Source: Nitrospirota bacterium (GTDB lineage: Bacteria; Nitrospirota; Nitrospiria; SBBL01; JAADHI01). Taken from it: DNA of 47,072 nucleotides. A program made the translations under genes and the position numbers. Shown one piece after another: positions 1,606 through 41,660 of the stretch. Location: NCBI GenBank assembly GCA_029261135.1, contig JAJDBX010000037.1:1-47072 (forward strand). Direction: 5' to 3'. Below the pieces are notes generated by a model. The model made no database searches. It saw only the letters and a program-made list of their open reading frames with translations, and was not told the DNA's origin. Each line of letters starts with the position of its first letter. Within the stretch, counting starts at the first letter, position 1.

Positions 1606-3018
1606 ATGTCGCATGGTATTTTAGTAATAGAAGACGAAGAGATGCTTGCCAACAACATCAAGCAATATCTGGAGCGTCATGATTATGAAGTCCGCATTGC
1701 CTCAAGCGCTGAAGAAGGAATGGTTCAATTTGATGTTTCTAAACCGGATGCCATTCTCTTAGATCTGAGACTCCCACAAATGGACGGGTTGGAAACGCTC
1801 TCCAAAATGCTCAAAATTGACCCTCAAGCCAAGATCATTCTCATTACGGGACATGGAAATGTGGAGACTGCAGTAGATGCCATGAAAGCGGGGGCCTATG
1901 ACTTTTTAAGCAAACCCCTGGTATTGGCCAAACTTAAAATATTGCTTGATAAGGCCGTGGGACAAACCCGGATGGAAAGAACCCTTTCGTATTATCGGGA
2001 GAAAGCAGTCGGGGTGACATCTCCATCTACTTTTATTGGTGAATCGCCCCCGATGCGGGTTTTAAAAGATCAGATTTCACAAGTCGTGCAATCCGATTTT
2101 TTGTTAGATAATGTCGATCCTCCGGCCGTCCTTGTTACAGGGGAGACGGGTAGCGGGAAAGAATTGGTTGCACAAGCGCTGCATTACACCGGCCCAAGAA
2201 AAGAGGAGCCCTTTGTTGAAATAAATTGTGCGGCTATTCCAAGCAACCTCTTGGAAGCTGAACTTTTTGGCTACGAACGTGGTGCCTTTACAGATGCCAA
2301 AACAAAAAAAATTGGACTGTTTGAAGCCGCGAATAAAGGCACGCTGTTCCTCGATGAAATCGGAGATATGGAAATTTCCTTGCAGTCAAAGTTGCTAAAA
2401 GTATTAGAAGACAAGATGATCAAGCGATTGGGTAGTATTCGAGAACATCACATCAGCGCCCGGATTATTGCCGCGACCAATCAATCACTCGAAGATCAGG
2501 TTCGTGAAGGACAATTTCGTGCCGATCTTTTTTTTAGGCTGAGGATTATTCATCTGAGCCTGCCGCCCCTTCGAAAGCGTGGGGAAGACATTCTTCTGCT
2601 CGTACGCCATTTCCTGGATATACTCAGCAAGCGTTATCGGAAAAAGGACATATCTTTCAGTCCCGAAGCCGAAAACCTTCTCTTAGCCTATTCCTGGCCC
2701 GGAAATGTCAGGGAACTCAAGAATATGATTGAACAAACAGTGATTCTTTCTAAAGAAAATGTGATTGAGGCAGCGCAATTGAGTTTAAATCCAAGCCTTG
2801 AGAGCTTGAATCCAGAAAAATCCATCTTCCCCGATCGCTTGTTTCAGGAATCCCTTCCACCGGAAGGGATTTCTCTTAAAGAGGTTGAGCGAAACCTTGT
2901 ATTAAAGGCGCTTCATCAGACCTCATGGAACATCACCCGCTCTGCAAAACTCCTTGGCCTTTCGCGAGATACCTTGCGTTACCGATTAGCAAAATACAAA
3001 ATCAGCCACCCTGATTGA
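1606..3018 (+). CDS. NtrC-family sigma-54-dependent response regulator
   Basis: A 470-residue three-domain activator. The receiver domain is residues 1-120 with phospho-acceptor Asp53 (LLDLRLP) and acidic pocket EDEE. The AAA+ sigma-54 interaction domain has Walker A GETGSGKE (179-186) and Walker B DEIGD (250-254). A Fis-type helix-turn-helix covers about residues 430-466. Family members form ATP-driven rings that contact sigma-54 RNA polymerase from distant upstream sites. The sigma-54 contact loop reads GAFTDA (226-231) rather than the textbook GAFTGA; such variants occur in functional relatives. It is probably phosphorylated by the kinase encoded 4 bases upstream. Its likely target is the sigma-54 promoter at 3768-3783, with the tandem palindromes at 3559-3596 as candidate binding sites. 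Confidence 0.94.
   Translation: MSHGILVIEDEEMLANNIKQYLERHDYEVRIASSAEEGMVQFDVSKPDAILLDLRLPQMDGLETLSKMLKIDPQAKIILITGHGNVETAVDAMKAGAYDFLSKPLVLAKLKILLDKAVGQTRMERTLSYYREKAVGVTSPSTFIGESPPMRVLKDQISQVVQSDFLLDNVDPPAVLVTGETGSGKELVAQALHYTGPRKEEPFVEINCAAIPSNLLEAELFGYERGAFTDAKTKKIGLFEAANKGTLFLDEIGDMEISLQSKLLKVLEDKMIKRLGSIREHHISARIIAATNQSLEDQVREGQFRADLFFRLRIIHLSLPPLRKRGEDILLLVRHFLDILSKRYRKKDISFSPEAENLLLAYSWPGNVRELKNMIEQTVILSKENVIEAAQLSLNPSLESLNPEKSIFPDRLFQESLPPEGISLKEVERNLVLKALHQTSWNITRSAKLLGLSRDTLRYRLAKYKISHPD
2849..2871. repeat. Intragenic perfect hairpin, 10-bp arms, 3-nt loop
   Basis: AATCCCTTCC at 2849-2858 is followed by ACC and its exact reverse complement at 2862-2871, inside the linker between the AAA+ and HTH domains of the NtrC-type gene. 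It is one of several perfect dyads found inside coding sequence in this window. Confidence 0.8.
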
Positions 3019-3089
3019 TCCCATGAAGCTTGTCTCGATTTTTTCTCTGTATATTAACGTGGCATATTATTTGCTGTATTCAGGCTTTT

Positions 3090-3530
3090 ATGGATTGTAA
3101 TAATAGTAAACTGACTTCATCGAACCAGCGGGTCTTAATTATTGAAGACGAAGAGATTCTCAAAAAAGCCATCGCCTTGAGTCTACAAAAAGTAGGCTAT
3201 AAAACGATGGAGGCCTCAAACGGGAAAGAAGCCAGAGAGATTCTAAAAACCAGTTCAGTGGAAATTATTCTTCTGGACATTGGGTTACCGGACTGTAACG
3301 GCCTTGACCTGTTAGAGGATATTCTAGAATTTTCTCCAGAGGTTGCTATAATTGTTATGACCGCGCAGGACACCGTGGAGAATATGGATCGGACGAAACA
3401 ACTAGGTGCTTCAGCTATTTTCATAAAACCCGTCATCTTGAAACAATTAAAGGAAACGATCCATGCGGTTGAGAAAAACCAAGTGCAGCGGCATGACAAT
3501 TCTCCTCAGTCTATACTGGGGCTAACCTAA
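3090..3530 (+). CDS. Stand-alone response-regulator receiver protein
   Basis: About 146 residues consisting of one CheY-like receiver domain with no output domain. The acidic pair (IIEDEE), the phospho-acceptor Asp in EIILLDIGLP, the Thr of VMTAQD and the Lys of FIKPV are all present. A ~15-residue polar tail follows. The ATG at 3090 is preferred because the domain starts shortly after it; a TTG at 3030 would add a hydrophobic, cysteine-containing leader with no domain match. The Shine-Dalgarno is weak for both. It follows the NtrC-type gene by about 70 bases and is probably part of the same phosphorelay, as a phosphate sink or a relay to an unlinked partner (inference). Confidence 0.85.
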   Translation: MDCNNSKLTSSNQRVLIIEDEEILKKAIALSLQKVGYKTMEASNGKEAREILKTSSVEIILLDIGLPDCNGLDLLEDILEFSPEVAIIVMTAQDTVENMDRTKQLGASAIFIKPVILKQLKETIHAVEKNQVQRHDNSPQSILGLT

Positions 3531-3558
3531 TAGACTAAGACCAATCTAAAACCATTCA

Positions 3559-3596
3559 TTTTGGGGGATATCCCCCGTTTTGGGGGATATCCCCCG
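3559..3596. promoter_or_regulatory. Tandem 19-bp palindromic units, candidate NtrC-type enhancer
   Basis: The unit TTTTGGGGGATATCCCCCG occurs twice without a gap (3559-3577 and 3578-3596). Each contains the perfect 14-bp dyad GGGGGATATCCCCC (3563-3576 and 3582-3595). The 19-bp spacing is near two helical turns. The sites lie roughly 190-220 bp upstream of the -12 element of the sigma-54 promoter, a usual distance for bacterial enhancer-binding protein sites, and the regulator gene is adjacent. The repeat and distances are read directly; the binding role is inferred. Confidence 0.7.
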
Positions 3597-3767
3597 CGTC
3601 AAATCCCCCACTGTGACCTAGATCCAATTGAAGTGACATGAAGATATCAATAATTCTTCCGCTCTAAATTGCGGTCGAACAAGTATATTTTAATAAAACA
3701 TTTCGTTTTTACCAGTCCAGATAAGGGAACGCACCCTAAAGCTAAACCAATCAGTACTGAAGCAAAA

Positions 3768-3783
3768 TGGCACAAGACTTGCG
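3768..3783 (+). promoter_or_regulatory. Sigma-54 (-24/-12) promoter
   Basis: TGGCACAAGACTTGCG matches the sigma-54 consensus TGGCAC-N5-TTGC(A/T) at every invariant position: GG at -24, GC at -12, five-base spacer. Transcription would start near 3794. This is the only such match I noticed in the window. It lies just downstream of a sigma-54 activator gene. An in-frame ATG at 3767 overlaps the promoter and therefore cannot be the start of the DUF6502-like protein made from this transcript. Confidence 0.82.
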
Positions 3784-3986
3784 AAACTCTAAATCAAAAC
3801 AAAACGAGATGGATAAATTGAACACAGCATTGATCTTTATATCGAATCACCCATTTCTGAGTAGAAAAGCTCCACAGGAAAGTCATACTTTTTTAAAAAT
3901 TTTACCAGGGATTTCTCTTTTTATTCTTATTTCACGGATAAAATATCCCAAAATATTCCAAAAAAAAGAATTAATAGGAGTAATAC

Positions 3987-4028
3987 TTGATCATTTCTTG
4001 TTGCATTTCATCATGTTTGGGATTATAA
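3987..4028 (+). CDS. Possible 13-residue leader peptide
   Basis: A TTG start six bases after AGGAG (3977-3981) opens a 13-codon ORF, MIISCCISSCLGL, with stop TAA at 4026-4028 inside the 28-bp palindrome. It is the only good Shine-Dalgarno in the leader; the downstream ATG at 4037 has none. Translation of the leader could open the hairpin that covers the next start codon. This is speculative, because a TTG mini-ORF can occur by chance. Confidence 0.3.
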   Translation: MIISCCISSCLGL

Positions 4029-4039
4029 TCCCAAACATG
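4012..4039. promoter_or_regulatory. 28-bp perfect palindrome covering the DUF6502 start codon
   Basis: CATGTTTGGGATTA (4012-4025) is followed immediately by its exact reverse complement (4026-4039). The last three bases are the ATG of the DUF6502-like gene. As DNA it could be an operator for a dimeric regulator; as RNA it would pair the start codon. Which applies cannot be told from sequence. Confidence 0.75.
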
Positions 4040-4861
4040 AAAACAAAAACACATGAAATATTATACGTAGCCGTACTAAAACTACTTCATCCACTGGTTC
4101 GCATCCTGCTCCGAAATAGTGTTCCTTTTAGGACATTTGCTGATTTAGCAAAACGCGTGTACGTCGATGTCGCCAAAGAAGAATTCAGTATTGTCGGTAA
4201 AAAACAAACGGATTCCAGGGTTTCTGTCATCACCGGACTCACTCGCAAAGAGGTTCGCCGTGTAAAGACCCTTCCAGAACCCTATGATGGATCTGTCACA
4301 GAGCGATACCACCGTGCCGCCCGTGTCATTAGCGGATGGGTGCGGGATCCTGAATTTTTAAATATATCCGGCCAGCCAGCCGATCTACCCATCGAAGGCG
4401 AAGGAGCGACTTTTAGTGAATTAGTCAAAACGTTCAGCGGCGACATGCCAGCGCGTGCGGTCTTAGATGAACTCTTACGCGTCAGTTGTGTCTCACGTTT
4501 AGAAAATGGACATATTCATCTCAAGACGCGAGCCTATATTCAAGGAACAGCAGAAAGTGAAAAACTTGATATTCTTGGAACCGATGTACGGGATCTCATC
4601 GCTACAATCGATCACAATCTTACACCTCAAAGCACCCGGTTTTTCCAGCGGAAGGTGGAATACGACAACCTTCCGGAAGAATTTATGAAAAAACTCCGGG
4701 CCTTGAGCGGCGAGCAGGGACAATATCTGTTGGAAGGACTGGATCGATGGTTAGCGAAACATGACCGAGACACCAATCCCGCCGTTGAAGGGAAAGGCCG
4801 GAAACGGGCAGGGATAGGCATTTATTACTTTGAGGAAGACCTAGGGGGCGTTCTCAATTAG
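4037..4861 (+). CDS. DUF6502-like protein, C-terminus replaced by IS sequence
   Basis: A 274-residue soluble protein resembling the DUF6502 family, recalled as a frequent neighbour of DUF5666 proteins; molecular function is unknown. The N-terminal ~70 residues (LRNSVPFRTFADLAKRVYVD, then SRVSVITGLTRKEVRRV) look like a helix-turn-helix module, suggesting DNA binding. The start at 4037 is chosen because the family-like sequence begins right after it and the upstream frame is non-conserved and crosses the sigma-54 promoter; 4013 is an alternative ATG. The last residues (GGVLN) are encoded by the inserted IS. Without the IS the reading frame would continue as L-E-K-G-Q-K and stop at TAA 5693-5695, overlapping the next gene's ATG. 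The core probably still functions. Confidence 0.78.
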   Translation: MKTKTHEILYVAVLKLLHPLVRILLRNSVPFRTFADLAKRVYVDVAKEEFSIVGKKQTDSRVSVITGLTRKEVRRVKTLPEPYDGSVTERYHRAARVISGWVRDPEFLNISGQPADLPIEGEGATFSELVKTFSGDMPARAVLDELLRVSCVSRLENGHIHLKTRAYIQGTAESEKLDILGTDVRDLIATIDHNLTPQSTRFFQRKVEYDNLPEEFMKKLRALSGEQGQYLLEGLDRWLAKHDRDTNPAVEGKGRKRAGIGIYYFEEDLGGVLN

Positions 4862-5674
4862 CGAATATTCTTTAAAAGAGTGTAAGATAGCAACCTTTTG
4901 AGGGATATAAATGAAACGGACTGTATTGCGTGATGATCAGTGGGAACGTTTGAAATATCTACTACCGGGCAAATCAACAGACTGTGGCGTTACAGCGGCA
5001 GATAACCGCCTGTTCATAGAGGCCGTATTATGGATTGCCCGAACAGGTGCTCCGTGGCGGGATTTACCGAAGGATTTCGGACATTGGCATCAAGTCTATG
5101 TACGCTTTGACCGATGGTCTAAAAAGGGAGTGTGGAACCGGGTATTTGAAGTGCTTTCCAGCGATCGGGATCTGGAATACTTGATGGTTGATGGAAGTAT
5201 CGTCCGGGTCCATCAACATGGTGCCCCCAAAAAAAACGCAGGAATCAGAAGCCGTTGGCAAATCACGAGGTGGTTTGAGTACAAAAATTCACGCGGCGGT
5301 GGATGCCTTGGGTAATCCACTGCGCCTGTTGCTAACCGCAGGACAGGCCTCGGAATACGGACAATCCGAGGCATTAATCAAAGGCTTTTTAGCCGACTAC
5401 GTGTTAGCGGATAAAGGATACGATTCCGATCAATTCGTTGCAACGGTGGAAGCAACAAAAGCTGTGCCTGTCATTCCAGCGAGGAAGAACAGGCGGCAGC
5501 CAAGAGATTATGACAAGGAATTGTATAAGGAACGTAATTTAGTGGAAAGATTTTTTCAGAAGATAAAAGATTTCCGCCGCATTGCGACACGATATGAACG
5601 CTTGGCGAGAAACTATCAGGCTATGTTGAGTTTAGTGGCCTCTGTGATTTGGCTGGCTTAATTGAGAACGCCCC
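4845..5674 (+). mobile_element. IS5-family (IS427-group-like) insertion sequence, 830 bp
   Basis: Perfect 16-bp terminal inverted repeats bound it: GGGGCGTTCTCAATTA at 4845-4860 and its reverse complement at 5659-5674. CTAG flanks both sides (4841-4844 and 5675-5678), a 4-bp target duplication of the kind used by IS427-group elements. Size, ends, target and a two-frame DDE transposase agree with that group. The perfect ends and duplication suggest recent insertion. It separates the DUF6502-like gene from the DUF5666-like gene; both ends lie only a few bases from the junction. Confidence 0.92.
4911..5661 (+). CDS. IS5-family DDE transposase made by frameshift (two ORFs)
   Basis: The first frame (4911-5315) starts MKRTVLRDDQWERL and carries the first catalytic Asp (LMVDGS). 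The second frame, used to 5661, carries the second Asp (VLADKGYDSD) and the Glu (NLVERFFQKIKDFRR). The frames join at a run of eight A's (5229-5236), where a net +1 shift, or transcript slippage losing one A, changes APKKN to APKKTQES and gives about 249 residues, the normal length for the group. The stop TAA lies inside the right inverted repeat. The arrangement fits the productive frameshifting of this IS group, although a disabling mutation cannot be excluded. Confidence 0.85.
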
Positions 5675-33952: not shown

Positions 33953-34048
33953 GCCAAGATCATCGGCTTCATATCCGAGATCGTGGACTTGAAGATAAGC
34001 ATTGCTTTTGTCCCATCCCCTTGCTATAACACTTTCGACATTACATAA

Positions 34049-34225
34049 CCTGATCAGGTGATCCCGGCCTCAAGCCGGGGTTGAAAAGGGAATCCCGTTA
34101 AAATCGGGAGCGGTCTCGCCGCTGTGTTGGGGGACGAAACCCACAAATGCCACTGTCGTGATGACGGGAAGGTGTGGGGAGTAGGACGAACCCAAAGCCA
34201 GAAGACCTGCCTGACTAGGAATCGC
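34049..34225 (+). ncRNA. Cobalamin riboswitch 1
   Basis: Aptamer landmarks are in order: CAGGTG, AAAAGGGAATCCCGTTAAAA, GCGGTCTCGCCGCTGT, GACGAAACCCACAAATGCCA, GGGAAGGTGTGGGGAGTAGG, then ACGAACCCAAAGCCAGAAGA and CCTGCCTG. These match the cobalamin riboswitch consensus, including the B12-box-like GCCAGAAGACCTGCC. Ends are approximate. An intrinsic terminator follows at 34268, so cobalamin should switch off the downstream receptor by termination. Confidence 0.93.
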
Positions 34226-34267
34226 GACCTGTCTTCGATGGACAAGACAACGGGATCACACGAGATA

Positions 34268-34304
34268 TCCCCAGTTTTTGACGATCAAAGCTGGGGATTT
34301 TTTT
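34268..34304 (+). terminator. Riboswitch expression-platform terminator
   Basis: TCCCCAG (34268-34274) pairs with CTGGGGA (34291-34297), followed by seven T's. It lies between the aptamer and the receptor gene. Confidence 0.85.
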
Positions 34305-34329
34305 GTTTTGAGACAGAGAATTTTAAACC

Positions 34330-36360
34330 ATGCTTCGCTTTTTCATTTTTTGGCTTATCATCATGAATCTGCTGACCTCACCCTCACTTGCAGCTGAATC
34401 GCAAGTACCCGATGACCCACCAGTTTTTTTGGAAGGCATTACCGTAGTCGCAGCCCCATACGATGAAGAAGACGATAACACGGAACCCTCACATAAAACC
34501 TTGATCATGGGAGAAACACTTCAGGAACGCTTTACTTCTATTCCTGAAATTCTCTCAGAAACCGTTGGCGTCAAGATCAATCGTTTTGGCGGACTCGGAG
34601 ATTTTAGCGCCATCTCCATTCGAGGTTCCTCTTCAAAACAAGTTTTGATCTATCTCGATGGGTTTTTACTCAACAATGCACAAGGTGGCGGGACGGATCT
34701 TGCACGCGTCCCACTCTCCCAAGTGAAGCGGATTGAAATTTACCGTGGCAGTGCGCCCATTCGATTCGGTCAAGTCGGCATCGGCGGGGTGATCAACATT
34801 GAAACGAAACAGGCCACGCACCAAACATCCGCCTCTGCTCAAATCCAGTATGGATCATTTAATACCTCTCGTTTCAATACAAGCCTTTCGAGCAAACCGG
34901 GAAAAAGTGACTTTTTTATCGGATTAAATCATGAAGAAAGCGACAACGATTTTATGTTCTTAAATGATAAGGGAACCCAATTTGATCTTGGTGATGACAC
35001 GATTGAAAAAAGAGAAAACAATCAGTTTGAATCGCTCAACCTGATTAGCAAAATAGGCTATGACCTCAGCACGAAAAACCGCCTCAATCTGTACCATAAT
35101 TTTCTAAAAACCGACAAAGGCCTGCCGGGCCTCAGCCGATTTCAATCGAAAACCGCAAACCTCAAAGCAGAAGAACATCGAAGCAGTCTCCGCATCGATG
35201 TAAACGATCTCTACGGCGCAACAACAAATTTAAAGTTAGGGCTACACTACGCGCGTAAAAAAGAACAATTTGAAGACCGAAATGGCGAAATCGGAATCAA
35301 CCGCCAAGATACCGATAACCTGACTGAACACTACGAAATCCGATTGAACTCAGAGGTCCTTCTCGGAGAAGCTCAAACCCTCAAAACACTACTGCAATAT
35401 AAAAAAGAACGCTTCCGACCTTTTGATAACCTCAGCACTGATGGTTTGAGCACAAGCCGTCGCGCAACCCTTACGATTGGCATGGAAGATCAGATCGCCT
35501 TCTTCCAAGACCGTCTTTTCCTCACACCCAGCATTCTCTATGACAAGGTCAAGAGCCGATTTAAGGGAGAAACTTTCAAAACCCGGATTGGAGGGCTTCT
35601 CCCCCCAACAAATGAAAAGGGGTTTTTAACACGGCAACTCGGCTTGTTTGCCCAGCTTACAAATACCCTGAGCCTACGCGCAAATATCGGACGTTATCTT
35701 CGACCCCCCAGTTTTTTTGAACTCTTTGGGGATCGAGGCGGTACCGTGAACAACCCTGATCTGCTCCCGGAAAAAGGCTTAAATCGGGATATCGGACTGA
35801 GGTACAGCAAAAGATTTCAAGGCTTCGTCAAAAAAGCCACAGTGCAAGCGGCCTACTTTAACAATGTTGCCGACAATCTCATTGTCTTTGTCCAAACCAG
35901 CCAATTTACAGCAAGACCAGAGAACATCGGAAAATCAAAAACCCAAGGACAAGAACTCTCCGGAAAACTGGAAATAGGAACATACCTTATGATCGAAAGT
36001 AATTACACCCATCAGCGGGCAATCAATCACTCTCCCAGAGAAAATGGGAAAATCCTTCCGGGCAGACCCATTCATGAGGTCTCAAGCAAAATGGAATGGG
36101 GTTCAGATCATTACGATTTTTTTTACACGCACGATTTTACCGATCAAAATTTTCTCGATGCACAAAATCAGAGAAATGCGACCTCACGCCATATCCACAA
36201 CCTTGGGGTCTCCATCAAATCACATCAAAACAACAGATCCAAAAAAAGTTGGTCGATCACACTCGAAGCAAAAAATATCACAGATAACACAATAGAGGAT
36301 GTCTTTGGTTTTCCATTGCCGGGACGATCCTACTTTATCACCCTTCAAGGCACAATTTAA
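34330..36360 (+). CDS. btuB: BtuB-like TonB-dependent cobalamin receptor
   Basis: A 676-residue outer-membrane receptor. The signal peptide is residues ~1-21 (cleavage near SLA-A). A TonB-box-like segment GITVVAAP follows. The plug domain contains ILSETVGVKINRFGGLGDFS, SIRGSSSKQVLIYLDGFLLN and KRIEIYRGSAPIRFG...GGVINIETK. The C-terminal barrel has FLRPPSFFELFGDRGG and ends in FPLPGRSYFITLQGTI. Position directly behind a cobalamin riboswitch and ahead of cbi genes supports cobalamin or cobinamide as ligand. A beta-propeller lipoprotein gene follows by 36 bases. Confidence 0.9.
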   Translation: MLRFFIFWLIIMNLLTSPSLAAESQVPDDPPVFLEGITVVAAPYDEEDDNTEPSHKTLIMGETLQERFTSIPEILSETVGVKINRFGGLGDFSAISIRGSSSKQVLIYLDGFLLNNAQGGGTDLARVPLSQVKRIEIYRGSAPIRFGQVGIGGVINIETKQATHQTSASAQIQYGSFNTSRFNTSLSSKPGKSDFFIGLNHEESDNDFMFLNDKGTQFDLGDDTIEKRENNQFESLNLISKIGYDLSTKNRLNLYHNFLKTDKGLPGLSRFQSKTANLKAEEHRSSLRIDVNDLYGATTNLKLGLHYARKKEQFEDRNGEIGINRQDTDNLTEHYEIRLNSEVLLGEAQTLKTLLQYKKERFRPFDNLSTDGLSTSRRATLTIGMEDQIAFFQDRLFLTPSILYDKVKSRFKGETFKTRIGGLLPPTNEKGFLTRQLGLFAQLTNTLSLRANIGRYLRPPSFFELFGDRGGTVNNPDLLPEKGLNRDIGLRYSKRFQGFVKKATVQAAYFNNVADNLIVFVQTSQFTARPENIGKSKTQGQELSGKLEIGTYLMIESNYTHQRAINHSPRENGKILPGRPIHEVSSKMEWGSDHYDFFYTHDFTDQNFLDAQNQRNATSRHIHNLGVSIKSHQNNRSKKSWSITLEAKNITDNTIEDVFGFPLPGRSYFITLQGTI

Positions 36361-36396
36361 TAAACACCAAAACAAAAGATGAGGAGAAAAGAAGAA

Positions 36397-37536
36397 ATGA
36401 ACCGAAAAACAACAAACATGATTATTGCCATTTTATTTTTTGTTACCATCAGTGGCTGTTCCGAAAACAAGACATCCGGGGGCGGCGCGAGCCCCTCATT
36501 TGGGTTTGTCATTACAAATGATTCCGGAGTGGGAAATCTCACGACAATCACCAGCACCACCCCTCGGAATACAGAAAAAGACATACTCGGCACCACAGTA
36601 CTTCACTCCGATTCGGTTATCCGATCTTTTGGCCGTTTTATTTATGTGATTCAACGGTTAGGGGCCAACTCTATTGTTGTCATTGATCCAAACAATCCAA
36701 ATACCCCAATTGCGAACTACACCACAAATGACACGGACAATCCCACGCAATCCAATCCGCACGATATGGATTTTGTCAGCAATTCAAAAGCCTACATTTC
36801 CCGCTATGGACTCAACACGATCTTGATTGTCAATCCCCTGAGTGGTGAGCAGCTCGGCACCATCGACCTGAGCCAATTTTCCGATAGCGATGGCATCGTC
36901 GAAATGGACCAAATGGTCATCATCGGTGATAAACTTTTTGTTTCCCTGCTTCGTTTGGATCGAGATACCTTCTTTGCTGCAACAAATGACAGTTATCTTG
37001 TCGTTATTGATACCAATACAGATCAATTGATAGAGGCCAGCCCCGGCGAAAATAAAGTTCTACTTGCAGGTCGAAACCCCTTCAGTGTGAACTACCTGGC
37101 CTCAACGGATCGGATTTATGTCTCAAATGTTGGGTTTTTCTCAACCACTGGTGATTTCGGCGGGATTGAATCCATCAACCCCAACAGTGGCTTAAGTGAA
37201 GGCATGCTCATCCATGATGACAATTTTAATGGCCCACTGGGAACCATTGCCATTCTATCTGAAACCATTGCCTATGTGACTGTTTTTGATGCCAATTTTA
37301 ATAATTTTGTGGTGCCTTTCAATTTGACAACAAGACAAATTGATCCCGCCTTAACCGGCATCGGCACAGGTTTTATTCCAAGTCTGGCTTTCGATAAATC
37401 CGGTTTTCTTTACGTGACAGATCGAGACCCGGCCAACCCGGGGCTTCAGGTTTTCAATACAACGACAAACCAAAAAGAAGAGGGGCCGATCGACACAGGA
37501 CTTTCCCCAAACGATGTGATCTTTATTAACCCTTAA
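36397..37536 (+). CDS. Beta-propeller lipoprotein, candidate BtuG-like cobalamin-binding partner
   Basis: A 379-residue lipoprotein. The signal peptide ends in the lipobox TISGC (Cys near 20), with a Gly/Ser tether. The body has seven or so repeats of the YVTN/YncE type (IYVIQRLGANSIVVIDPNNP, AYISRYGLNTILIVNPLSG, IYVSNVGFFS, LYVTDRDPANPGLQVFNTT). In Bacteroides, BtuG is a surface beta-propeller lipoprotein that captures B12 for BtuB. Here the gene sits right behind a btuB-like gene in a riboswitch-controlled unit, so an analogous role is inferred. The start at 36397 has AGGAG about 10 bases upstream; 36379 is an alternative start. Confidence 0.8.
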   Translation: MNRKTTNMIIAILFFVTISGCSENKTSGGGASPSFGFVITNDSGVGNLTTITSTTPRNTEKDILGTTVLHSDSVIRSFGRFIYVIQRLGANSIVVIDPNNPNTPIANYTTNDTDNPTQSNPHDMDFVSNSKAYISRYGLNTILIVNPLSGEQLGTIDLSQFSDSDGIVEMDQMVIIGDKLFVSLLRLDRDTFFAATNDSYLVVIDTNTDQLIEASPGENKVLLAGRNPFSVNYLASTDRIYVSNVGFFSTTGDFGGIESINPNSGLSEGMLIHDDNFNGPLGTIAILSETIAYVTVFDANFNNFVVPFNLTTRQIDPALTGIGTGFIPSLAFDKSGFLYVTDRDPANPGLQVFNTTTNQKEEGPIDTGLSPNDVIFINP

Positions 37537-37546
37537 CGCAAATCTA

Positions 37547-37580
37547 CCTCAATCCCCCTTTGACAAGGGGGGAGGTTTTT
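37547..37580 (+). terminator. Palindromic repeat acting as terminator
   Basis: CCTCAATCCCCCTT (37547-37560), TGAC, AAGGGGGGAGG, then TTTTT: a hairpin with U-run between the lipoprotein and cbiB. It is related to the longer repeat at 42943-42990. Confidence 0.7.
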
Positions 37581-37589
37581 GGAGTGAGT

Positions 37590-38549
37590 ATGCATCCAGT
37601 CTATTTGACAATGGCCTTTGGTCTTGACTTACTTTTGGGGGATCCCTTGTGGCTCCCCCATCCCGTACGGTGGATTGGCAAAGGGATTTCGACGTTTGAA
37701 AAAATACTTCGCCGCCGGGTCATGCCTCAGATCGGGGAAAAACTATCAGGAAGCGTGCTTACGGCAATGATCGTATCCGCCACCCTTGGACTTACCTGGT
37801 GCATCATGGCGTTTGGACAATTCATTCATCCCCGTTTTGAAGTGGTTTTGATGATCTATTTCTCTTACACCATTCTTGCCACCCGATCACTCGGCGATGC
37901 GGCGGCAGGGGTAAAAGAAGCCCTGCAAAACGCGGCACTTCCCCTGGCGCGAAAACGCTTGTCGCACATTGTCTCTCGGGACACTGAAAACCTTTCGGAA
38001 AAAGCCGTCATTCGTGCAACGATTGAAACGGTTGCCGAAAACACTTCGGATGGCATTGTTGCTCCGCTTTTTTATTTGTCGCTGGGTGGCCCGGCGCTCG
38101 CGATGGCTTATAAAGCCGTGAACACCTTGGACTCGATGGTGGGATATCGTACGCCACAATACCGTGACTTCGGGTGGGCTTCTGCAAAGTGTGACGATGG
38201 GGTCAACTATTTTCCCGCAAGAATCACAGGATTTTTAATGTGTCTTGCGGCCAGTATTCAATTTCGGCGGGGCAGACGATCTTTAAAGACCCTGTTGAGA
38301 GACGGGCACAAACACGACAGCCCCAACGCCGGCATTCCCGAAGCCGCAACTGCCGGGGTCCTGGGCATTCAGCTCGGCGGCCCCAGTGTTTACAAAGGGA
38401 TTGTAAAAGAAAAACCCTGGCTCGGCGATGGGGCAGAAAAACCGGAACCTCGACACATTCAAGACAGCATCCGCTTGATGCGCAGCACCGCAATCTTGAT
38501 GTGGCTCTTGTCGATACTAGGACTGAGTCTATCGCGAGGGGTTTTATGA
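37590..38549 (+). CDS. cbiB: Adenosylcobinamide-phosphate synthase CbiB (CobD)
   Basis: A 319-residue integral membrane protein that attaches (R)-1-amino-2-propanol phosphate (or the free aminoalcohol) to adenosylcobyric acid. Characteristic blocks are LLLGDPLWLPHPVRWIGKGI, ETVAENTSDGIVAPLFYLSL, NTLDSMVGYRTPQYRDFGWA, PARITGFLM and SPNAGIPEAATAGVLGIQLG. The ATG at 37590 has GGAG 5 bases upstream; GTG 37584 is less likely. Its stop overlaps the cbiA start by 4 bases. Confidence 0.95.
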   Translation: MHPVYLTMAFGLDLLLGDPLWLPHPVRWIGKGISTFEKILRRRVMPQIGEKLSGSVLTAMIVSATLGLTWCIMAFGQFIHPRFEVVLMIYFSYTILATRSLGDAAAGVKEALQNAALPLARKRLSHIVSRDTENLSEKAVIRATIETVAENTSDGIVAPLFYLSLGGPALAMAYKAVNTLDSMVGYRTPQYRDFGWASAKCDDGVNYFPARITGFLMCLAASIQFRRGRRSLKTLLRDGHKHDSPNAGIPEAATAGVLGIQLGGPSVYKGIVKEKPWLGDGAEKPEPRHIQDSIRLMRSTAILMWLLSILGLSLSRGVL

Positions 38550-39811
38550 AGGCCTTTGTCATCGCGGGCACGCACAGCGGCGTGGGCAAAACCACGGTCG
38601 CCATCGGACTCATGGCCGAATTCAAACGGCGCGGCCTGGCGGTGCAGGCCTTCAAAGTCGGGCCGGATTACATTGACCCTTCCTATCACCGCCTTGCCAC
38701 CGGCCGCCCTTCGCGTAACCTCGACACTTGGCTCTGCAGTAAAAAAACGGTGCGACAGAGTTTTGCGCGGGCAGCCCTGGATCTAAACGTCGTCGAAGGC
38801 GTCATGGGTTTGTTTGATGGCGCAAAAAATGGCAAAGGCAGCACAGCCGAAACCGCTGCCTTGCTTGAACTTCCGGTCCTGCTCATCGTCGATGCCAAAG
38901 GCATAGCGCAGTCTGTCGGTGCCCTAGTGCAGGGTTTTGCGCAATATCAGCCAACAACGCGCATTGCCGGTGTGATTTTTAACCGTGTGGCTTCCGAGGG
39001 CCATTATGTTTATCTCAAAAATGCCGCGAAAATTCCGAGCCTCGGCTGGATTGCAAAAAATCAAGACATCGTCCTGCCAGAGCGGCATCTCGGATTGGTG
39101 CCCGCATCAGAGCGTGTGCCGGACATCGAAAAAATCCGTGAAACCGTTGTCGCCCATCTGGATCTAGAGAAGCTCTTGCGGCTTTCAAAAATAAATGTGC
39201 CGCAGACACAGGCTTTACCAAAGCGAAAAACGCGGGCGCGCATCGCCTATGCCTTGGATGCCGCCTTTCACTTCTATTATGAGGATAATTTGGACTATCT
39301 GCGGGCGGCAGGCGCGGAACTTATCCCTTTCAGTCCACTCAAAGATACGCGCCTGCCAGATGCCGACCTGCTCTATTTTGGCGGAGGTTTCCCAGAACTA
39401 TTTGAAAAAATATTGCGCAAAAACAAAGACTTTTGTGAGGCGATGCAGTCCTGGAAAAAACCGATTTATGCAGAATGCGGGGGGCTTTATTACCTCAGTC
39501 TCATCCACAAAATCCCCGGAAAAATGGAAATGCGGGATCGTCTTCAGCACTTTGGTTACGCCAAAGCCACGGCCCAGGCCGATACCTGTCTTCTCCGCGC
39601 GGGAGAAAGCGTGAAAGGCCACATGTTTCATTATTCACACTGGGACGGACCGGCGAATCTCTACCGCTTTGAAAAACGGGGTGCGCGCTTGAGTGAAGGT
39701 TATGCCGCCGGAAGGATTCACGCCTCGTACTTGCACGTGCATTTTGCTTCGAATCCTAAACTTGCGCGGCATTTGGTCGCGGCCGCATCGCAGGCGCAAA
39801 AGGAGGTCTGA
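38546..39811 (+). CDS. cbiA: Cobyrinate a,c-diamide synthase CbiA
   Basis: A 421-residue amidotransferase, slightly shorter than usual. The N-terminal P-loop synthetase domain has IAGTHSGVGKTTVAIGLMAE, KVGPDYIDPSYHR and GLFDGAK. The C-terminal class I glutaminase has the nucleophile Cys in YAECGGLYYL, and GHMFHYSHWD and RIHASYLHVHF near the end. It amidates side chains a and c of cobyrinate using glutamine and ATP. The ATG at 38546 overlaps the cbiB stop; the longer in-frame extension upstream runs inside cbiB and is rejected. Its stop overlaps cbiX (TGATG). Confidence 0.95.
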   Translation: MKAFVIAGTHSGVGKTTVAIGLMAEFKRRGLAVQAFKVGPDYIDPSYHRLATGRPSRNLDTWLCSKKTVRQSFARAALDLNVVEGVMGLFDGAKNGKGSTAETAALLELPVLLIVDAKGIAQSVGALVQGFAQYQPTTRIAGVIFNRVASEGHYVYLKNAAKIPSLGWIAKNQDIVLPERHLGLVPASERVPDIEKIRETVVAHLDLEKLLRLSKINVPQTQALPKRKTRARIAYALDAAFHFYYEDNLDYLRAAGAELIPFSPLKDTRLPDADLLYFGGGFPELFEKILRKNKDFCEAMQSWKKPIYAECGGLYYLSLIHKIPGKMEMRDRLQHFGYAKATAQADTCLLRAGESVKGHMFHYSHWDGPANLYRFEKRGARLSEGYAAGRIHASYLHVHFASNPKLARHLVAAASQAQKEV

Positions 39812-40518
39812 TGAAACAAGCCGTACTTCTGGTCGGACATGGCAGCAAAGATCCCGAAGGCAACAAGGAATTTGAGACCTTCGCGGCGCGTGCGGGTATG
39901 CGCCATTGTATGCTTGATTATATCGAGCCTTCATTGCCCACTGCGCTTTCACTGCTTGCGGCAGAGGGCGTGCGCGATTTAGCCGTCATCCCCTATTTTC
40001 TCTTTGCTGGGGGGCATGTAAAACAAGATATTCCGGGCCACATTCAAGCCGCAGCGGCGAAATATCCAAAAATGAACATTCGGCTGGGGCGGCATCTGGG
40101 CTTGGAGCCAGCCCTGTTTCAAGCCAGCGCCGCGCGATTGGGGTCCATCGAAAACCGAAAGGTGCTCTTGGTGGGACGCGGCAGTTTGCACCCCGATCCC
40201 ATTCGTGACATGGCCGCGCTCACACAGGCGCTTCAAACCCGTATCGGCCACGCGGAGATCGACCACTGTTTCATTGCCTTGGCGCCGCCATATCTACCGA
40301 CAGGCATCGCGCGAATGCGCGAGGCTTCGGGTGATGTACCGATTGTCTTGCCCTATTTTTTATTCACCGGGGTCTTGGTAAAACGTATCATCCAAATCAG
40401 TGAAGCACAGGGCTGTGAGGTCCGGCCGCACTTGGGGGCGCACGAGGCCTTGCTACACTTGCTTCATCAACGGAAGACTGAAATTTGGGAGGGAAATGAC
40501 CATGCAAACCATTGTTGA
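39811..40518 (+). CDS. cbiX: Sirohydrochlorin cobaltochelatase CbiX (long form)
   Basis: A 235-residue double-domain CbiX. The first half has both metal-binding His (VLLVGHGSKDPEGNKEF, YFLFAGGHVKQDIP). In the second half they are lost (LLVGRGSLHPD, YFLFTGVLVKRI), so there is one active site per chain. It inserts Co(II) into sirohydrochlorin at the start of the anaerobic branch. The C-terminal tail is short and not His-rich. Start overlaps the cbiA stop by one base; its 3' end overlaps cbiC by 17 bases. Confidence 0.92.
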   Translation: MKQAVLLVGHGSKDPEGNKEFETFAARAGMRHCMLDYIEPSLPTALSLLAAEGVRDLAVIPYFLFAGGHVKQDIPGHIQAAAAKYPKMNIRLGRHLGLEPALFQASAARLGSIENRKVLLVGRGSLHPDPIRDMAALTQALQTRIGHAEIDHCFIALAPPYLPTGIARMREASGDVPIVLPYFLFTGVLVKRIIQISEAQGCEVRPHLGAHEALLHLLHQRKTEIWEGNDHANHC

Positions 40519-41125
40519 TCCGCAAGCCATTGAAGACGAATCGTTCCGAATTATCGAAGCAGAATTTGGCCCCCACGCCTTTTCACCAGAGGCCTTTTCC
40601 ATCGTGCGTCGCGCGGTACACGCGACGGCGGATTTTGATTTTTCAAAAACCATCCATATTTTTCCGGGGGCCATTCGAGCGGGCATTGCCGCCATTCGCG
40701 CCGGTGCGCCCGTCATTGCTGATGTGCAGATGATTCAAGCGGGCATCAATAAAAAAGGGCTCGCGGCTTTTGGTTCAGAGGTTTTGTGTTACATCGGTGA
40801 CGAAGACGTCGCGAAAAAAGCGAAAGCGGTAGGCGTCACCCGGGCGATGATTTCCATGCGAAAAGCAGCCTCGTATTTTCCGGGGGCAATTTATGCGATC
40901 GGAAACGCGCCGACCGCGCTTCTGGAATTGATTCGCCTTGCGGAAACCGCCAAACCTGCGCTGGTCATTGGTGTCCCTGTGGGCTTTGTTTCCGCCGTGG
41001 AGTCCAAAGAACAATTGGCGAAAACAGATCTGCCCTACATCACCGCCCTGGGACGCAAAGGCGGCACCCCGGTGGCGGTGTCCATCATGAACGCACTCAT
41101 TAAACTCGCAGGAGAAAAAATATGA
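40502..41125 (+). CDS. cbiC: Cobalt-precorrin-8 methylmutase CbiC
   Basis: A 207-residue enzyme moving the C-11 methyl to C-12 in precorrin-8. The catalytic His region RRAVHATADFDF, FPGAIRAGIAAIRAGAPVIADVQMIQAGI and the glycine-rich IYAIGNAPTALLELIRL and GVPVGFVSAVESKE are all present. The start at 40502 is set by GGAGGG 8 bases upstream, inside the end of cbiX; ATG 40496 is too close to that RBS. Stop overlaps the next ATG by 4 bases. Confidence 0.94.
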   Translation: MQTIVDPQAIEDESFRIIEAEFGPHAFSPEAFSIVRRAVHATADFDFSKTIHIFPGAIRAGIAAIRAGAPVIADVQMIQAGINKKGLAAFGSEVLCYIGDEDVAKKAKAVGVTRAMISMRKAASYFPGAIYAIGNAPTALLELIRLAETAKPALVIGVPVGFVSAVESKEQLAKTDLPYITALGRKGGTPVAVSIMNALIKLAGEKI

Positions 41126-41463: not shown

Positions 41464-41660
41464 AAGGAGGTGCGTCAAAAGAAAACACAATCAGCCTTTA
41501 AAACAGTCGTCAAAGCGCGATGTATTTAGGGAAGGCGGTGAAAGTCCGCCACTGCCCCGCAACTGTAATGGGAGACGAAGACTGCCTCATGCCACTGTTC
41601 TTTAAAGAATGGGAAGGCGCAGCCAGTAGGATGAACCCAAAGTCAGGAGACCGATGAATC
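41464..41660 (+). ncRNA. Cobalamin riboswitch 2
   Basis: GGTGCG (41469 on), AGGGAAGGCGGTGAAAGTCC, CCACTGCCCCGCAACTGTAA, then ATGCCACTGTT, GGGAAGGCGCAGCCAGTAGG, ATGAACCCAAAGTCAGGAGA follow the cobalamin riboswitch consensus closely. Ends are approximate. Unlike the first copy it is not followed by a U-tract terminator but by a hairpin at 41669-41699. Confidence 0.95.

Follow-up and report, generated by a model that had tools for sequence, protein, structure and literature searches.

Does a BtuB-like receptor that is encoded together with a propeller lipoprotein under cobalamin control, outside Bacteroidota, belong to a B12 capture system comparable to BtuBG? BtuG was described as confined to Bacteroidetes (PMC6143338), and the capping of TonB receptors by lipoproteins as a trait that only this phylum seems to have (PMC10404256); other BtuB-using organisms were reported not to have BtuG (PMC12751083; literature to December 2025). 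The locus lies in a 47,072-nucleotide stretch of a Nitrospirota genome, which was analysed at its full length and is called the window here. We suggest that the lipoprotein is quite probably a BtuG-like outer-membrane corrinoid capture protein, which would work with the BtuB encoded just before it.

The unit is read from the plus strand. It begins with a cobalamin riboswitch aptamer (RF00174) at 34039-34228, which matches the full model (1-189) with 116.4 bits against the gathering score of 31.5. Between the aptamer and btuB, sequence and fold reveal a terminator-like hairpin with a T-run at 34267-34304 (ATCCCCAG...CTGGGGAT). Its fold of -20.9 kcal/mol (z -5.4) is equalled by none of 200 shuffles, and it is probably the expression platform of the riboswitch; an aptamer followed by a hairpin and a T-run is the usual arrangement of a transcription-attenuating riboswitch. 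The receptor gene at 34330-36360 encodes 676 residues with the plug (E 2e-18) and barrel (E 7e-34) domains which, together with the cobalamin regulation, characterize BtuB. It matches the TonB-B12 model TIGR01779 with E 1e-38, below the equivalog cut-off, and thus represents a divergent BtuB.

The lipoprotein gene at 36397-37536 (alternative start 36379) follows the btuB stop by 36 nt, or by 18 nt from the alternative start. The codon of the lipid-anchor Cys, which follows the residues FVTISG, is at 36457-36459, and this lipobox Cys is conserved in all homologues with the N-terminus present, as expected of a BtuG-type lipoprotein. The operon continues with cbiB (cobD; 37560-38549, exact start uncertain; PF03186, E 6e-106), cbiA for cobyrinate a,c-diamide synthase (38546-39811, start approximate; GATase_3 and CbiA domains), cbiX (39811-40518; PF01903, E 5e-41) and cbiC (40499-41125, start approximate; PF02570, E 6e-76). 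Because these cobalamin-biosynthesis genes are present, the need of the organism for B12 import is not obvious. The first-pass annotation had described a btuB-like gene and a propeller lipoprotein under one cobalamin riboswitch in an organism that did not look like Bacteroidota; the riboswitch, receptor, lipobox and predicted propeller model confirm the first part, and the Nitrospirota genome the second.

The order of riboswitch, receptor and lipoprotein is not a matter of chance, since the 3.2 Mb assembly contains only two RF00174 matches, both inside the window, and the order is repeated in all 22 testable homologous loci. These are the window, L006, L007, L009, L014, L040 and sixteen gammaproteobacterial loci, that is, the loci of the B12 arm of the family with intact upstream DNA. 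Not counted are L008, L044 and L052, whose sequence stops within btuB or shortly ahead of it, and L058, a fragment of the genome that also holds L051. A TonB receptor gene is located immediately upstream of the propeller gene and on the same strand in each of the 25 B12-arm genomes. The two are mostly separated by tens of bases or overlap, with the widest gap of about 160 bases. Hence, the co-occurrence behind cobalamin riboswitches that had been proposed as a check is observed throughout, and no member of the propeller clade turned up next to a non-cobalamin receptor, which would have spoken against the idea. The sole exception is L060, the weakest family match and the only locus without the riboswitch. 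There (1661-5072) the TonB receptor is of siderophore type and is followed by a XusB-like lipoprotein; an AraC-family regulator and ExbB-like proteins are nearby (receptor type and ExbB assigned by inspection). Its surroundings and the absence of the riboswitch place L060 in a separate arm, and judged from its genes it is a putative lipoprotein-paired siderophore system of a gammaproteobacterium, thus outside Bacteroidota.

The receptors tell the same story of pairing. In a tree that includes E. coli BtuB, FepA, CirA, FhuA and PqqU, the B12 receptors that are paired with a lipoprotein group in one clade across both phyla (99/98). It lies within a wider clade of all lipoprotein-paired receptors (97/89), which also holds Bacteroidota BtuB and two siderophore-type receptors. 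Plain BtuB of the window's family and E. coli BtuB group together (99/94) outside the paired clade. The first tree agrees, and both are to be read with long branches and few unpaired receptors in mind. One genome of the same genus (G002) carries plain BtuB, only 24% identical to that of the window and without a propeller, in the matching slot, with an MFS gene and then the riboswitch before it and cbiB after it. Like the window's receptor, this canonical BtuB stands behind a cobalamin riboswitch, but as in E. coli it has no propeller partner and belongs to the separate clade. With the paired receptors in one clade and plain BtuB outside it, receptor and propeller appear to travel together, and the lipoprotein is co-inherited with one receptor lineage.

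The AlphaFold2 models of the window lipoprotein (pLDDT 71, pTM 0.75) and of its Chromatiales homologue L014 (pLDDT 72.7, pTM 0.78) are both propellers. In structure comparison BtuG entries take the first eleven places for the former and the first ten for the latter (Z 27.4 and 30.9). E. coli YncE (24.2 and 26.1) and XusB (24.2 and 25.3) score lower; these margins are modest, and the two models, built from a common alignment, are not independent. The alignments to BtuG extend over about 300 residues with 14-19% identity. A profile of the conserved blade segment run against all PDB sequences returns BtuG as the nine best matches (E about 0.006), which, being closely related to each other, amount to few independent ones. 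Pfam and NCBIfam give no usable family for the window lipoprotein, and the propeller is not detectable by Pfam, including its YncE-type form (PF21783).

On these grounds we propose the following course of events. When cobalamin is scarce, the riboswitch would permit transcription of the btuB-lipoprotein unit. The lipid-anchored and strongly acidic propeller would be seated on the receptor at the cell surface. The loop-rich face of the propeller would bind the corrinoid and hand it over to BtuB, with TonB-driven import following. In the model, 17 of 115 top-loop positions, the predicted ligand face, are conserved vs 4 of 52 bottom positions, a suggestive difference, but too weak to build on. 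The mature proteins of the family are strongly negative, with a median net charge of -26; that of BtuG2 was reported as -18 (PMC10404256). This fits the electrostatic attraction described for BtuG2 (PMC10404256), though acidity is not specific evidence.

The weakest link of the proposed lid is its exposure at the surface. The tails after the lipobox Cys are rich in Asn, Asp and Gly and share no common motif like the MKWD of BtuG2. The Slam exporter (PF04575) is found in 5 of 26 carrier genomes, mostly with marginal scores. Its absence or marginal presence in most carriers makes another export route or a periplasmic role possible. The lipoprotein might thus face the periplasm from the outer membrane and escort corrinoids from BtuB to BtuF as a chaperone instead of serving as an external lid. 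This would be in keeping with the default Lol sorting, by which most lipoproteins of the outer membrane in Pseudomonadota stay on its periplasmic side (PMC12578637). We consider this rather unlikely, because the lipoprotein is co-inherited with one BtuB lineage and not with BtuF, many loci have no adjoining btuF, and the closest folds, BtuG and XusB, are both external lids.

An external lid could also have come directly from Bacteroidota, as a true BtuG orthologue acquired by horizontal transfer. By structure BtuG ranks first, and the paired-receptor clade includes Bacteroides BtuB. However, with profiles from either the Nitrospirota or the gammaproteobacterial set, BtuG ranks only behind the XusB-like L063 and L060, which in turn come after the other B12-arm set. 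In a nominal set of 10,000, E is 3e-4 to 5e-3 for BtuG and 1e-6 to 7e-17 for the XusB-like lipoproteins. L063, a lipoprotein of Phocaeicola, is encoded behind a TonB receptor gene in an apparent NRPS cluster; it is a relative of XusB (E 9e-8). In the receptor tree, siderophore-paired receptors come between the B12-paired receptors and Bacteroides BtuB (91/94). The BtuG family domain DUF5074 (PF16819) does not match the window protein and matches only 3 of 24 homologues, at best with E 3e-6, vs 2e-20 for Bacteroides BtuG. We therefore hold orthology to BtuG for improbable. The same ranking also counts against the capture lid that we favour, since the likeness to BtuG is marginal by sequence alone and is surpassed in score by the XusB-like lipoproteins, which are associated with siderophores.

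Nor do we favour a simple convergent origin from a YncE or YVTN protein. E. coli YncE was not detected with the Nitrospirota or gammaproteobacterial profiles (hhalign probability 14%), so that the similarity is at noise level. These proteins share the broad propeller superfamily, and E. coli YncE also adjoins a TonB receptor, the PQQ receptor PqqU, but by inspection it is not a lipoprotein. Moreover, receptor and propeller both look like one lipoprotein-paired lineage common to BtuBG and XusAB, which argues against convergence. A propeller tree with BtuG, XusB-like, DUF5074 and YncE outgroups neither resolves the B12 arm as one clade nor rejects it (p-AU 0.45). Judged by its sequence, the window propeller is thus best taken as a relative of both BtuG and XusB, in a distinct sister family and not as a BtuG orthologue. 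The first-pass label "BtuG-like" is apt in the sense that BtuG is the nearest solved fold and does not extend to DUF5074 membership; of its "new or convergent" protein, the distinctness is retained and the convergence is not.

The gene neighbours bear on the cargo. L009 (16-7187) holds riboswitch, btuF, btuC, btuD, tonB, btuB, propeller and cbiB in one unit, so that a single operon covers B12 import almost completely. btuC, btuD or btuF flank the gammaproteobacterial copies L014, L040, L050, L053, L056, L057 and L059, and a further contig of the window genome encodes a btuF-btuC pair alongside cobQ and a cobalamin adenosyltransferase. This points to corrinoids rather than cobalt as the substrate. 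It is accordingly very hard to credit that the cargo of the B12-controlled pair is a cobalt chelate or some other non-corrinoid compound, although the neighbours in the window are biosynthesis genes including cbiX, and not btuFCD, and XusB-like relatives bind siderophores (PMC13142918).

We return to the reading of a BtuG-like capture lipoprotein working with BtuB. It resembles BtuBG of Bacteroides thetaiotaomicron (PMC6143338, PMC10404256) in riboswitch control, in the btuB-adjacent and acidic propeller lipoprotein, in the nearest solved fold and in the paired receptor clade. It differs in that the propeller is not DUF5074 by Pfam, follows btuB, whereas it is ahead of btuB in the Bacteroides locus L061, and occurs in Nitrospirota and Gammaproteobacteria, where corrinoid binding, which for BtuG is femtomolar to picomolar, is predicted by analogy. 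The XusAB xenosiderophore system (PMC13142918) is also a pair of receptor and propeller lipoprotein, and by sequence the XusB relatives L063 and L060 are the nearest outgroup of the window family. However, XusAB has a siderophore context (NRPS genes, AraC-type regulator) and no cobalamin riboswitch; XusB was reported as DUF4374 (PMC13142918), and the window family has no DUF4374 match and a cobalamin riboswitch in place of that context. We tentatively propose, well aware that it may prove wrong, that BtuBG, XusAB and the window family would descend from one ancient lipoprotein-capped TonB receptor module that is present also beyond Bacteroidota. A separate branch in Nitrospirota and Gammaproteobacteria would serve B12. 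As a cassette of receptor plus lid it would take the place of plain BtuB at the same chromosomal site, and it would reach the surface mostly without Slam.

A 2026 paper reports B12-binding DUF4465 proteins in several phyla (PMC13398666), so B12-scavenging proteins outside Bacteroidota are not wholly new. These lipoproteins (BtuJ), which often lie near B12 transport genes, are beta-jellyrolls and not propellers. For the propeller-BtuB pair outside Bacteroidota we found no report in a literature search limited to open-licence papers. The Bacteroidetes-only rule would no longer hold if two other phyla have a propeller family that is linked to receptors and controlled by riboswitches. If B12 capture is true, high-affinity capture would not be just a gut adaptation. 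The family would also offer a system for asking how such lipoproteins get to the surface outside Bacteroidota.

Homologues of the window lipoprotein were found in four other Nitrospirota, with 57-65% identity. Among 396 sampled genomes of the phylum the matches are confined to the window's genus and one other sampled genus; a separate search also matched G038, of a further genus. The one distant database match is L014 from a Chromatiales MAG, 34% identical. A profile search gave matches in 21 of 369 genomes of its gammaproteobacterial class, and 20 of the 369 are counted as carrying homologues. When 398 genomes spread over its phylum were sampled, its own genome was the only convincing match, which makes the distribution of the family patchy. 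Plasmid searches returned no copy of the family and one partial Prevotella match, and a BtuG scan of viral contigs gave no match. The related lipoproteins at L014 (6419-7957) and L040 (5998-7476) have an extra N-terminal domain ahead of the propeller; in L014 it is Calx-beta, and L040 is equal to L014 in length.

Last, several features of the surroundings are worth recording. In G001 (L007, 4759-5085; L003, 552-1445) the cbiB that follows the propeller stops after about 113 residues, and its frame runs on into acetyltransferase-like sequence, by either a gene break or an assembly join. The second riboswitch of the window (41529-41652) heads a gene for a YVTN/YncE-type propeller (to 42940), followed by cbiD and further cbi genes. 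This second B12-controlled propeller has neither a lipobox nor a TonB receptor neighbour. The riboswitch-propeller pair is kept in G003 (L006), where this propeller is 90% identical but btuB and the lipoprotein only 58-64%; G004 has the propeller as well (67% identical). In G005 and G006 (L102, L104) two cobalamin riboswitches stand in tandem, about 130-250 bases apart.
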